Of a stretch of 37,581 nucleotides of DNA, positions 19,674 through 33,733 are shown in pieces. Numbering within the stretch: position 1 is the stretch's first letter; every line of letters begins with the position of its first letter. The stretch spans positions 1-37,581 of the forward strand of contig JABSRX010000082.1 in the NCBI GenBank assembly GCA_013214695.1, in the 5' to 3' direction. Under the pieces are notes generated by a model that had not been told where the DNA came from, made no database searches, and was given only the letters and a program-made list of their open reading frames with translations. The DNA is from Rhizobiaceae bacterium. Its GTDB lineage: Bacteria > Pseudomonadota > Alphaproteobacteria > Rhizobiales > Rhizobiaceae. Position numbers and translations under genes: made by a program.

Positions 19674-19756
19674 CGGTAAAGGTGGTTCGAGGGTCTTGGT
19701 TAACGAGTATAGCGTCAGCCAATGCAATGCGCACTAGGGCGGACAAAGAAATTAGT

Positions 19757-20100
19757 GGAGGTTTCTGTTGCCAGGTACCTCCGAACCCCGCCTAGCGGAG
19801 CGAACCGCTAGGAGTTCAAGTGAAACATTTCGCGCAGCTTAAGCTGCGAGGCGTGCTTCCGCATAGTTGTTATCATTTGCAACTATTATAATGGCCCGAT
19901 ATCGGTGGGTACCATGCCGAGTGAAAACGCAGTCTTTACACCCTCGTCGATCCTATTTCGCCCCCGCCAAACCGCATCTCAGCGACGCAAAATGCAGTTT
20001 GGTGGAGGCGCCGGGTACCGCCCCCGGGTCCGAATGGCTTATTACAAAGGTCATTTATCACCATAGTCGGGTTGCCCCGACGAACCCAATATAGGGTTCC
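19757..20100 (-). ncRNA. ssrA: tmRNA, circularly permuted two-piece form; tag ANDNNYAEARLAA (outer ends approximate)
   Basis: On the minus strand: acceptor piece ending CCGGGGGCGGTACCCGGCGCCTCCACCA (CCA end at 20000), then a coding piece from 19965 GGGGGCGAAATAGGATCGACGAGGGTGTAAAG; tag GCAAATGATAACAACTATGCGGAAGCACGCCTCGCAGCTTAA at 19880-19839. GGGGGCG pairs with CGCCTCC. Confidence 0.95.
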
Positions 20101-20156
20101 TGAAGGGTGGTGAAAAGGGCCTTTGAGGATTATGCGGAAGACTGGCTCCAGCCAAC

Positions 20157-28703: not shown

Positions 28704-29459
28704 ATGAGAAAACTGGCGGATACAGCCTATTGGATCTTTGCTGTCGGCAGTGTCGGCAGCCTGGCTCTGGCTGTGTTTGTTTTCCTCCGTTTGCGGCCCG
28801 ATATTCTCTCCCGAGGCGGTTCATCCATAGGCCCGTTTGACCCGATGTTTTTGGCCGTCGTTGCGATGGGCATCACGCTGGTTTTCGGGCTGGTTATCAC
28901 CATGCCGATATTGCGCCAGCGACACCACGAACAGGAGAAGCTGACGGACCGCGCCGCCGAGCTTGAAGTGGCCGTTGTGACCGATCCGCTGACCAAGCTG
29001 TACAACCGGCGCTACTTCGAGGACGCGCTGGACGAGTATGTCAGCGAGTTCGCCAAAATCGGGGCACCATTGGCGCTGCTCACCCTCGACCTCGATCACT
29101 TCAAGAGCGTCAACGATACCTACGGCCATGATGCTGGTGATGTTGTGCTGAAGCATTTGGCCAGCAATCTGCAGAAGGTCACCAGGGAGCACGACATCGT
29201 GGCTCGAACGGGCGGGGAGGAGTTTTGCATCGTTGCACCGTTTTCTGACGCCAGTCAGATACGACCCTTCGCGGAGCGTGTCTGTCGAATGGTGGAGCAG
29301 ATGCGGGTGGACATTGGTGTGATTATTCTGAGGCCAACGATTTCGATCGGAGTGGCCTCGACTGCTGATGGGCCGAAGACGCCGAAAGAGCTGATCAAGA
29401 TCTCGGACGAGCGGCTGTATGAGGCCAAAGAGCAAGGGCGTAACCGGGTCAGCTGCTAG
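28704..29459 (+). CDS. Membrane GGDEF-domain protein (probable diguanylate cyclase)
   Basis: Two N-terminal hydrophobic helices; DPLTKLYNRRYFEDALDEY; LDLDHFKSVNDTYGHDAGD; TREHDIVARTGGEEF (GGEEF active site with RxxD five residues upstream). Confidence 0.93.
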   Translation: MRKLADTAYWIFAVGSVGSLALAVFVFLRLRPDILSRGGSSIGPFDPMFLAVVAMGITLVFGLVITMPILRQRHHEQEKLTDRAAELEVAVVTDPLTKLYNRRYFEDALDEYVSEFAKIGAPLALLTLDLDHFKSVNDTYGHDAGDVVLKHLASNLQKVTREHDIVARTGGEEFCIVAPFSDASQIRPFAERVCRMVEQMRVDIGVIILRPTISIGVASTADGPKTPKELIKISDERLYEAKEQGRNRVSC

Positions 29460-29483: not shown

Positions 29484-29511
29484 TTGACGAAATCAAAAGC
29501 CACACTATTGT
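29484..29511 (+). promoter_or_regulatory. Candidate sigma70-type promoter for the ilv leader
   Basis: TTGACG-N16-TATTGT located 5' of the leader peptide. Pattern match only. Confidence 0.4.
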
Positions 29512-29544
29512 GTTGCGCAATTGAAATTACCCGGGGGCACGGCT

Positions 29545-29595
29545 GTGTCTAAAATTCTGGTAGTGGTGAGGAAGCGCGTTAGCGTGGTGAGATAG
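29545..29595 (+). CDS. Candidate attenuator leader peptide MSKILVVVRKRVSVVR
   Basis: GTG start preceded by GGGGG (7-nt spacing); 16 codons with Ile-Leu-Val-Val-Val and later Val and Val-Val, TAG stop in the loop of a following hairpin, upstream of ilvI. Confidence 0.75.
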   Translation: MSKILVVVRKRVSVVR

Positions 29596-29619
29596 ACTCC
29601 ACCACGAATGCTAACGCGC
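29574..29619 (+). promoter_or_regulatory. Attenuator pause hairpin overlapping the leader peptide codons
   Basis: GCGCGTTAGC-GTGGTG ... CACCAC-gaat-GCTAACGCGC: 10 bp plus 6 bp with a 4-nt bulge. Confidence 0.7.
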
Positions 29620-29622
29620 GTC

Positions 29623-29646
29623 AGGCTCCTTCGGGGGCCTTTTTTA
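29623..29646 (+). terminator. Attenuator terminator upstream of ilvI
   Basis: AGGCTCC-TTCG-GGGGCCT stem with UUCG tetraloop followed by a T-run. Confidence 0.75.
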
Positions 29647-29712
29647 TTGGTCGAAAGACCGCATTGATGGTTATTAAGTGGCGCAAAGCGCCGAGCAAAA
29701 TGGGAAGGTACA

Positions 29713-31506
29713 ATGGCAGGCAAAAGCGAAAGTGGGGCCGGTTCACGCGAAATGAGCGGAGCCGAAATGGTCGTACAGGCTTTGATCGACAATGGGGTCA
29801 CAGATCTGTTTGGATATCCAGGCGGCGCTGTACTGCCCATCTACGATGAGCTGCATCAACAGGACACCGTGCGCCACATTCTGGTGCGCCATGAGCAGGG
29901 TGGTGGGCATGCGGCCGAAGGCTATGCACGTTCCACGGGCAAGCCGGGCGTTGTCCTGGTGACATCTGGCCCTGGTGCAACCAACACCGTGACGGCTTTG
30001 CAGGATGCGTTGATGGATTCCATCCCACTTGTTTGTATTACAGGCCAGGTTCCAACGCCGCTGATCGGTTCAGACGCATTCCAGGAATGCGACACCGTTG
30101 GCATTACCCGTCCCTGCACCAAGCACAATTGGTTGGTCAGCGACGTCAACGACCTCGCCGAAATTCTGCATCAGGCCTTTCACGTCGCCACTCACGGTCG
30201 CCCTGGCCCGGTTGTTGTTGACGTTCCGAAAGATGTTCAGTTCGCGGTTGGTACCTATCATCCACCCTCCGAATTTGACCAGAAATCCTATTCGCCCAAA
30301 GTCAGCGGCGATCTGGAACAGATCAAGGCGGCGGTTGAACTGATGGCCTCGGCCCGCAAGCCCATCATCTATTCCGGTGGCGGCGTCATCAATTCCGGCC
30401 CGGAGGCCACGCAGCTGCTGCGTGAGTTGGTGAAACTGACCGACTTTCCAATCACCTCGACCTTGATGGGGCTGGGCTGCTATCCGGCCAGCGGTGACAA
30501 ATGGCTCGGTATGTTGGGCATGCACGGCACCTACGAAGCCAATATGGCGATGCACGACTGTGACGTCATGGTCTGCGTTGGTGCCCGGTTTGATGACCGG
30601 ATCACCGGCCGCGTCGACGCCTTTGCACCAAACGCCAAGATCATTCACATCGATATTGATCCGTCCTCCATCAATAAGGTTGTCCATGCGGACGTCCCGA
30701 TTATTGGTGATGTCGGCCTCGTGCTGGAAGACATGGTGCGTCTGTGGCGGGCCCACAGCGACCGTCCTGATCCGGAAGCCTTGCAGGCCTGGGAACGGCA
30801 AATCGACATTTGGCGTGATCGCAAGTCACTGGCCTACAAACCCAATGATGACGTCATCATGCCGCAATATGCGATTGAGCGTCTCTATGAGCTGACCAAG
30901 GACATGGACACCTACATCACAACCGAAGTTGGGCAGCATCAGATGTGGGCGGCTCAGTATTACGGCTTTGAGGAGCCTAATCGCTGGATGACGTCAGGTG
31001 GCCTCGGCACGATGGGCTACGGTCTGCCGGCGGCTATGGGTGTGCAAATTGCCCATCCGGACTCGCTGGTCGTCTGTATTGCCGGGGATGCGTCGGTGCA
31101 GATGAACATCCAGGAAATGTCCTCCGCGCTGCAGCACGGCACTCCCATCAAGATCATGATCTTGAACAACGAATATATGGGCATGGTGCGTCAGTGGCAG
31201 CAGCTTCTGCATGGCAACCGTTTGTCCAACTCCTATACGGAAGCCATGCCGGACTTTGTCAAACTGGCCGAAGCCTATGGCGGAACCGGTATTCGCTGCA
31301 CCAAACCATCGGAACTGGATGATGCGATCAGGCAGATGATTGAAACCGATGGACCGGTGATTTTCGACTGTTGCGTTGTCACCCTGGCCAACTGCTTCCC
31401 AATGATCCCATCAGGCAAGGCGCACAACGAAATGCTGCTGCCGGATGAGGCGACGGACGAAGCCGTTGGCTCGGCAATCGATGAAAAGGGCAAGGCGCTG
31501 GTCTAA
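29713..31506 (+). CDS. ilvI: Acetolactate synthase large subunit
   Basis: [66 protein letters not shown]; ThDP motif [29 protein letters not shown]. Confidence 0.97.
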
Positions 31507-31544: not shown

Positions 31545-32450
31545 ATGTCAAAGACGCCGACACTGCCAGATTATCTGCTGTTGCTTCTTCTGGGAGCGAT
31601 ACTGGGGTCGAACTTCATGATGACCAAGATTTCAGTGCAGACCCTGCCACCGATGTTTGTGGTCTCATTTCGGCTGGCAGTGGCTGCCGTGATCCTCTAC
31701 GTGCTGATGAAAGCCGCCGGACTGAGCTTGCCCAAAGGCAAGATATGGTGGCCCTTGATCGGGGCAGGGGTGTTTGGTTTGACCCTGCCTTTCACCCTGC
31801 TGGCCTGGGCGCAGCAACGGGTGGATGCCGGCCTTGCCGCCATTTTGATGGCGATCATGCCGTTGTTCACGCTGCTGTTGGCCCAGATCTTCACCAAGGA
31901 TGAAAAGCCCAACCGATATGCCTTTGGGGGCTTTGCGATTGCGCTGGTGGGGATCGTGGTGCTGTTCGGTGCTGACAAACTGGCAAGTCTGGCCGATCAG
32001 AGCATCCGACAATATGCGGTTATCGGCGCGGCCCTTTGCTATGGGCTAAACGCCATTATCACCAAGCAGTTGACCGGCATGGATTGGCAACAATCATCGG
32101 CAGCGTTTTTGATCATCGCATTCGTGTTCTCGCTTCCGCTGCTGCTGCTCTCCGATCTCTCTTCGCTGGTTGCGCCCGCACATGTTTGGGCGGCCACGAT
32201 CTATACCGGGATCGTGCCGACGGCGATTGGCAGCATCATCATCATCATGATCGTGCGAAAGACCAGTGCCAGCTTTCTGTCGCAGATCAATTTTCTGGTA
32301 CCCGTATTTGGCGTTGCATTTGCCATCATCTTCCTTGATGAAGCTTTGCCGAACAATGGTGCGGTTGCCCTACTTGTCATCCTGGCGGGCGTTGCCTTGG
32401 CACGCCGTCGACTGAAACGTGAATTTATCTCTATAAACAAAGGTGTTTGA
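31545..32450 (+). CDS. EamA/DMT family transporter
   Basis: About 10 TM segments: LPDYLLLLLLGAILGSNFMMTKISVQTLPPMFVVSFRLAVAAVIL and C-terminal FLSQINFLVPVFGVAFAIIFLDEAL. Confidence 0.92.
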   Translation: MSKTPTLPDYLLLLLLGAILGSNFMMTKISVQTLPPMFVVSFRLAVAAVILYVLMKAAGLSLPKGKIWWPLIGAGVFGLTLPFTLLAWAQQRVDAGLAAILMAIMPLFTLLLAQIFTKDEKPNRYAFGGFAIALVGIVVLFGADKLASLADQSIRQYAVIGAALCYGLNAIITKQLTGMDWQQSSAAFLIIAFVFSLPLLLLSDLSSLVAPAHVWAATIYTGIVPTAIGSIIIIMIVRKTSASFLSQINFLVPVFGVAFAIIFLDEALPNNGAVALLVILAGVALARRRLKREFISINKGV

Positions 32451-32454
32451 ACCC

Positions 32455-33048
32455 ATGAAGCCTGTTGTTGAACACAAAGACGGGGCAGTAACCCCTCCGG
32501 CATCTGCCTATTTCATTGCTGAAAACCGCGAAATGATCGTTCAGCACACATTGTCGGTTCTGGTCGACAATGAATCGGGTGTGTTGGCACGTGTGATCGG
32601 GCTGTTTTCCGGGCGCGGCTACAATATTGAAAGCCTGACGGTTTCCGAAACCGAACACGACCGCCATCTTTCCCGCATCACCATCATTTCCAAGGGCACA
32701 CCGAAAGTGCTGGAGCAAATCAAGCGCCAGTTGGAACGCATGGTGCCGGTTCATCGCGTGGTGGATCTGACCTTGCGTGCGCATCGCCTGGGCCATGAGA
32801 AGCCCTTGGAACGCGAATTGGCGCTGGTGAAGGTCGCTGGTACCGGAGAGCACCGAGTTGAAGCGCTTCGCTTGGCGGAAGCCTTCGGTGCCCAGGTCGC
32901 AGATGCAAATGTCGGGCATTTCGTTTTCGAAATCACCGGACGCCAGCAAAAGATTGAGCAATTCATCTCGATCATGACTCCGCTTGGTCTGGTCGAAGTT
33001 TGTCGAACCGGTATTGCCGCGATGAACCGCGGTTCGGAAGGTATGTAG
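32455..33048 (+). CDS. ilvH: Acetolactate synthase small (regulatory) subunit
   Basis: HTLSVLVDNESGVLARVIGLFSGRGYNIESLTVSETE (ACT domain); FEITGRQQKIEQFISIMTPLGLVEVCRTGIAAMNRG. Confidence 0.97.
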   Translation: MKPVVEHKDGAVTPPASAYFIAENREMIVQHTLSVLVDNESGVLARVIGLFSGRGYNIESLTVSETEHDRHLSRITIISKGTPKVLEQIKRQLERMVPVHRVVDLTLRAHRLGHEKPLERELALVKVAGTGEHRVEALRLAEAFGAQVADANVGHFVFEITGRQQKIEQFISIMTPLGLVEVCRTGIAAMNRGSEGM

Positions 33049-33120: not shown

Positions 33121-33130
33121 TTTGGTGGTT

Positions 33131-33733
33131 ATGCTCATGTCTTTGACGACATTTCTGGCTCTTCTGGTCTTCTCCTTTGTTTCGTCGATCACGCCGGGAC
33201 CGAACAACATCATGCTGTTCGCTTCCGGAGTGAATTTCGGCATGTGGCGCACCATGCCCCATGCGTTGGGCATTTCGTTTGGATTTGGCGTCTTGCTCGC
33301 TGCGGTTGGCGCTGGGGTCGGGGTGATCCTGGCAACCGTTCCGATCCTGTTTCTCGCCATCAAGGTGGCGGGTGGCCTCTACATGCTGTTCCTGGCTTGG
33401 AAAATAGCCAATTCCGGTAAGGTGGAGGCCAAGCAAGTGACCGCCAAGCCGATGACCTTTTTGCAAGCGGCCTTGTTCCAGTGGGTCAATCCGAAGGCCT
33501 GGGTGATGGCGACCGTTGCCATGTCGGCTTACACGCATGAGGGCAATTACGCTCTCAATGTCGGCATCGTTGTGTTTTCGTTTGTTGTATTGAACTTCCC
33601 ATCGGTGACGGTTTGGGCTGGCTTTGGCACCGTGATGCGCAACTTTCTGGAAGATCCGGTGAAGTTGAAGATTTTCAACTATGTCATGGCCATCGCGCTG
33701 GTGCTGTCGCTGTGGCCCATGCTGGTCACCTAA
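33131..33733 (+). CDS. LysE/Rht family translocator
   Basis: LLVFSFVSSITPGPNNIMLFASGVNFGMWRTMPHALGISFGFGVLL. ATG 33131 or 33137; the supplied ORF begins at TTG 33122. Confidence 0.9.
   Translation: MLMSLTTFLALLVFSFVSSITPGPNNIMLFASGVNFGMWRTMPHALGISFGFGVLLAAVGAGVGVILATVPILFLAIKVAGGLYMLFLAWKIANSGKVEAKQVTAKPMTFLQAALFQWVNPKAWVMATVAMSAYTHEGNYALNVGIVVFSFVVLNFPSVTVWAGFGTVMRNFLEDPVKLKIFNYVMAIALVLSLWPMLVT

Follow-up and report, generated by a model that had tools for sequence, protein, structure and literature searches.

Results

A probable branched-chain amino acid attenuator precedes ilvI

The 37,581-nucleotide stretch of Rhizobiaceae DNA that we analyzed (hereafter the window) very probably carries, ahead of ilvI, a ribosome-mediated transcription attenuator with a branched-chain amino acid leader peptide; we put the probability at roughly 0.88. 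Its position before ilvI, its Ile/Leu/Val leader, its codon bias, its spacing and its covarying helices all argue for this identity. The element and its gene consist of the following features:

29484-29489, plus strand: -35-like hexamer TTGACG; TTGAC recurs upstream of the leader start in relatives
29506-29511, plus strand: -10-like hexamer TATTGT, 16-nt spacer to the -35-like hexamer; the same in sibling L059
29533-29537, plus strand: GGGGG, ribosome-binding-like stretch read in the sequence; able in the window to pair with the terminator 5' arm and loop, which is not conserved in siblings
29545-29595, plus strand: leader peptide ORF MSKILVVVRKRVSVVR, 16 codons; GTG start at 29545-29547, TAG stop at 29593-29595
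29554-29568, plus strand: control codons ATT CTG GTA GTG GTG (Ile-Leu-Val-Val-Val), ending 8 codons ahead of the stop
29574-29583, plus strand: 5' arm of the hairpin 1 outer stem, GCGCGTTAGC
29584-29605, plus strand: inner hairpin GTGGTG/CACCAC (arms 29584-29589 and 29600-29605), with the stop codon in its loop
29610-29619, plus strand: 3' arm of the hairpin 1 outer stem, GCTAACGCGC
29623-29645, plus strand: intrinsic terminator with a 7-bp stem, a UUCG loop and T6
29713-31506, plus strand: ilvI, acetolactate synthase large subunit, the controlled gene (NF006581, 1169 bits against a cut-off of 974)

A preliminary description had reported a 16-codon, GTG-start frame with a GGGGG ribosome-binding site and an Ile-Leu-Val-Val-Val run, a long hairpin that holds the stop codon in its loop, and, ahead of ilvI, a terminator with a UUCG loop and a T-run. 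The sequence bears out each of these elements. Hairpin 1 spans 46 nt (29574-29619). The terminator lies between the leader ORF and the first structural gene, with arms AGGCTCC and GGGGCCT around TTCG (29623-29640) and a T-run at 29640-29645, and 67 nt separate its end from the start of ilvI. When 29530-29655 was shuffled 200 times, 199 of the shuffled sequences folded less stably than the original (z = -3.0).

The leader and its codon choice are conserved

Comparison of the ilvI upstream regions of relatives, which the preliminary description had proposed as a check, recovers both the leader and covarying paired stems. A leader was called when at least three consecutive Ile/Leu/Val codons were followed by a T-run soon past the stop. 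By this rule, 126 of 138 ilvI loci have a leader of 14-21 codons with an Ile/Leu/Val run. The ilvI loci that we took independently from named genomes (Rhizobium, Mesorhizobium, Agrobacterium, Bartonella, Bradyrhizobium and others) agree with those derived from the Rfam family RF02502. All 121 unique leaders have the T-run 42-55 nt past the stop, a T-run at 35-75 nt being itself the selection rule.

The tandem-codon leader expected of a ribosome-mediated attenuator is found in the window as ILVVV, and it is frame-specific. Among 60 diverse representatives (leaders under 85% identity), codons -12 to -9 encode Ile, Leu or Val in 97, 97, 100 and 83% of leaders, compared with 0-27% for the same positions in the other two frames. 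Because the run was a criterion for selecting ORFs, its presence is partly circular; codon choice and stop spacing were unselected. Of the Val codons in the leader run 54% are GTA, compared with 3% in the ilvI genes of these loci (odds ratio 37, p = 3e-54). CTG is replaced by CTT, CTC or CTA in the run, and ATT is preferred, with ilvI and the window genes as the codon background. Attenuation leaders are expected to show such a bias in their control codons (PMC1183508). Exactly eight codons separate the run from the stop in 98 of 121 leaders. In 91 of 121, the GCGC at the foot of hairpin 1 begins five nt past the run.

Promoter placement and the leader start

In several genera, the window's among them, TTGAC is found between -53 and -64 relative to the leader start. 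From the two hexamers, transcription of the window element would start near 29518, leaving a predicted 5' UTR of about 25 nt. In 63 leaders, mostly from Rhizobiaceae, TTGAC lies 36-38 nt ahead of the leader ATG. Given the usual promoter spacing, transcription would begin on the ATG or a few nt away from it, so most Rhizobiaceae ilvI leaders may be leaderless. A leaderless leader ORF has been reported for S. meliloti trpL (PMC10117765), another rhizobial attenuator, which upon termination leaves an RNA that accumulates as an sRNA (rnTrpL). The trpL leader resembles the possibly leaderless ilvI leaders of most Rhizobiaceae, but it responds to a different amino acid and differs from the window leader with its putative 5' UTR.

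The leader start in siblings is mostly ATG, and sibling L048 has an ATG at the exact position of the window GTG; GTG is therefore a plausible start codon. In sibling L059, an ATG lies six nt upstream of that position, where the window reads ACG (29539-29547). An ancestral ATG start may have been lost in the window species.

The element belongs to Rfam family RF02502

The window element matches RF02502 (Atu_C8) at 29541-29655 with 53.1 bits, above the gathering cut-off of 50 (E = 2.3e-8, cmscan), and is thus a member of the covariance-model family. This is the single RF02502 match found in the window's genome. The family has a match in 77 of 150 genomes drawn from the order and in 46 of 61 relatives; the window's genus is represented by 14 of 15 genomes (its own genome counted). 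In 58 of 59 fetched RF02502 loci, ilvI lies directly downstream. Since the 29 ilvI loci of other orders yielded one clear counterpart (L154), the strict form of the leader looks limited mainly to Hyphomicrobiales.

Rfam files Atu_C8 as 'Gene; sRNA', a Rhizobiales sRNA, whereas we read the window member as an ilvI leader with a peptide. The attenuator reading makes this 'sRNA' family a leader-peptide attenuator in about half of the order's sampled genomes, and it annotates the control of branched-chain amino acid synthesis in the window's genus.

Three helices covary across relatives

We compared own-partner with swapped-partner pairing among the 60 representatives, a test that needs no alignment. 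Three helices stand out: the inner stop-codon hairpin (z = -12.9), the outer stem (z = -10.2) and the terminator (z = -7.8), where the swap ignores relatedness, so that these z values are guides and not probabilities. Covariation of both the outer and the inner helix identifies an upstream hairpin that overlaps the ORF (1:2). In a 39-sequence alignment, ten of sixteen pairs keep pairing with changes on both sides, compensatory changes preserve the outer stem, and the GCGC base pairs of hairpin 1 are nearly invariant. Hairpin 1 and the terminator are separated by 3 nt in the window and by 0-9 nt elsewhere.

No fourth covarying helix rose clearly above noise in the pairing scan of the 60 representatives, and consensus folds of truncated transcripts, made clade by clade, contained no shared alternative helix. 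The bases directly after the T-run (29646-29652 in the window) are conserved in all relatives with the consensus ATTGCC or ATGCCC, without covariation. In read-through RNA, these bases could pair with GGGC/GGCC of the terminator 3' arm. As a candidate helix with that arm or with the leader, ATTGCC was set aside, since its covariation did not exceed noise.

An enteric-type antiterminator is not found in the ilvI leaders

We measured what pairing of the terminator 5' arm and loop with sequence upstream of a stalled ribosome gains in energy, and compared this with the gain for shuffled arms. The E. coli trp, his, thr, leu, ilvGMEDA, ilvBN (ivb) and phe leaders gain between -7.1 and -13.7 kcal/mol, more than 92-100% of the shuffled arms do. 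The 60 representatives average -1.9 kcal/mol against -3.4 for shuffled arms, and the window gains -1.5 against -4.0 kcal/mol. Upstream partners for the terminator 5' arm seem to be depleted. Thus, in the window and its 60 relatives we did not find an enteric-type antiterminator that sequesters the terminator 5' arm, a result that concerns the enteric mechanism and not attenuation as such. We rejected the equilibrium probability of the terminator under ribosome masks as a test, because it is also mostly high for E. coli leaders (pheL excepted); plain equilibrium folding is therefore uninformative about an antiterminator.

The preliminary description had failed to see an antiterminator by eye and had doubted the switching geometry. 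This doubt was justified: all seven E. coli leaders pass the energy test, while the window and its relatives fail it. Given the test in 60 representatives, the missing antiterminator is a property of the whole family. The accompanying claim of a match to classical branched-chain attenuation is therefore borne out in part: the leader, codon bias, spacing and covarying helices before ilvI fit it, but the enteric-type antiterminator does not appear.

Discussion

How stalling could lead to read-through

In the proposed mechanism, when Val-, Ile- or Leu-tRNA is charged, the leader ribosome would reach the stop codon inside hairpin 1. The terminator would then form and transcription would end ahead of ilvI, yielding a leader RNA of about 120 nt, the kind filed as the sRNA Atu_C8. 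When charged tRNA is scarce, the ribosome would stall on Ile-Leu-Val-Val-Val, its leading edge would touch the invariant GCGC at the foot of hairpin 1, and more polymerases would read through into ilvI. The data show the leader, the selection on its codons, the fixed spacing, the three helices and the terminator; we infer the stalling, the amino acid response and, above all, the step from stalling to read-through. If the last Val codon occupies the A site, the ribosome footprint, about 12 nt, would end on the GCGC base of hairpin 1, and this may explain both the invariance of GCGC and the fixed eight-codon spacing. Against the mechanism, hairpin 1 would stay closed while a ribosome is held on one of the earlier Val codons. 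Read-through after stalling might depend on a 2:3 pairing that is short and kinetic, or on hairpin 1 acting in a non-classical way.

The kinetic candidate is a classical antiterminator in which the stretch that directly follows the stop codon (CGAA..GC in the window and CCGGCGA-AGCC in rhizobia) would pair briefly with the terminator 5' arm and loop. Such pairing is visible by eye in many sequences, its duplexes reach -19 kcal/mol, and the segment is well placed to be masked by a ribosome at the stop codon. However, the segment pairs with its own partner no more strongly than with swapped ones (p = 0.38-0.56) and does not outdo an arbitrary GC-rich segment, and engagement in the window is worth about 0 to -4 kcal/mol. 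Striking as it is by eye, the segment is unsupported as an antiterminator by the own-versus-swapped test, and we regard this switch as possible but doubtful. Somewhat less probable is a non-classical switch, in which stalling lifts termination although no antiterminator hairpin competes with the terminator: once its base is opened, hairpin 1 might, for example, alter polymerase pausing or terminator efficiency, or a protein might bind the freed 3' arm. Such a switch refines the attenuator reading and is compatible with it. It would account for the calibrated absence of 5'-arm pairing in the 60 representatives, for the nearly invariant GCGC at the stem base at its set distance past the control codons, and for the close abutment of hairpin 1 on the terminator in the window. 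All of this evidence is negative, though, and energies can miss pseudoknots, tertiary contacts or short kinetic pairings. There is also a weak candidate helix between the post-stop segment and the terminator loop plus 3' arm (z about -2.5 to -3.5; -3.5 in a coarse scan and about -2.7 in a finer one), whose duplex energies are the same for own and swapped partners. We consider it unlikely that the family is a widespread ribosome-sensing attenuator, present in at least about half of the sampled Hyphomicrobiales genomes, that relieves termination without an RNA antiterminator, with stalling acting through the terminator-abutting hairpin, the polymerase or a bound protein. If the antiterminator is truly missing, the family would be a tractable system for studying how a stalled ribosome can block intrinsic termination by means other than RNA refolding.

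Folding also indicates that the window's GGGGG (29533-29537) is able to pair with the terminator 5' arm and loop. In a switch specific to the window, the ribosome-binding site (29530-29537), free under a Val-stalled ribosome, would pair with 29627-29636. The full RNA favors this pairing under a stalled-ribosome mask, with a terminator probability of 0.00-0.13, and it is present in the unmasked minimum free energy fold. The pairing is absent in siblings L048 and L059, however, and before the terminator 3' arm is made it is worth -1.7 to -4.2 kcal/mol, no better than shuffled arms. As it is found in the window only, we rejected it as the switch and regard it as very improbable. We give even less credence to a reading of RF02502 as a free-standing gene for a trans-acting sRNA that lies before ilvI by chance. 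The Rfam type would fit it, and attenuator RNAs can act in trans, as does rnTrpL of S. meliloti (PMC10117765), but the nearly invariant position before ilvI, the conserved control codons and the codon bias indicate a leader, and the single exceptional locus still has a Val-rich ORF.

Relation to known attenuators

The ribosome-mediated attenuator of ilvI has described counterparts. Passages in citing papers attribute an alphaproteobacterial ilvB leader peptide to Vitreschak 2004 (PMC1273637), cite Vitreschak et al. 2004 for an 'ilvIH cis regulatory' element in S. meliloti (PMC2573895), and cite Tarleton et al. 1994 for C. crescentus ilvBN attenuation with an ilvL leader CDS (PMC4117421). Because these passages cite the element as known in alphaproteobacteria, the branched-chain attenuator family is already described, and the window instance belongs to it. 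As represented in those citing papers, the ilvB/ilvIH attenuator shares with ours the gene, the bacterial class, a tandem Ile/Leu/Val leader ORF and a terminator before the acetolactate synthase gene. The E. coli ilvGMEDA, ilvBN, leu and trp attenuators likewise have a leader rich in control codons, biased codons, a stop near the upstream hairpin and an intrinsic terminator, but their 2:3 antiterminator is detectable by energy, unlike in the ilvI leader family. Three points may be new: the link to RF02502, the statistic on codon choice, and the calibrated result that an antiterminator of the enteric type is absent.

Neighboring genes and unusual loci

In L141 (8742-8862), an RF02502 leader with the Val-rich ORF MMIAIDMVVVGRRMGTAA lies before an MFS transporter gene instead of ilvI, and the same genome has a second, weaker RF02502 match in the region of its ilvI gene. 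The attenuator has possibly been transferred to another gene there. The Rhizobium ecuadorense genome has a second RF02502 copy (L140, 3950-4070, minus strand) before a divergent acetolactate synthase paralogue of 583 aa, from which a stretch towards the C-terminus seems to be missing.

Within the window, a GGDEF diguanylate cyclase gene (28704-29459) lies between miaA and the ilvI leader. An EamA-family transporter gene (31545-32450) is located between ilvI and ilvH (32443-33048), and a LysE-family translocator gene (33122-33733) lies downstream of ilvH; both possibly encode amino acid exporters. The window also carries an alphaproteobacterial tmRNA gene on the minus strand (19754-20120; RF01849, 290.8 bits), which the permuted-tmRNA family matches as well.
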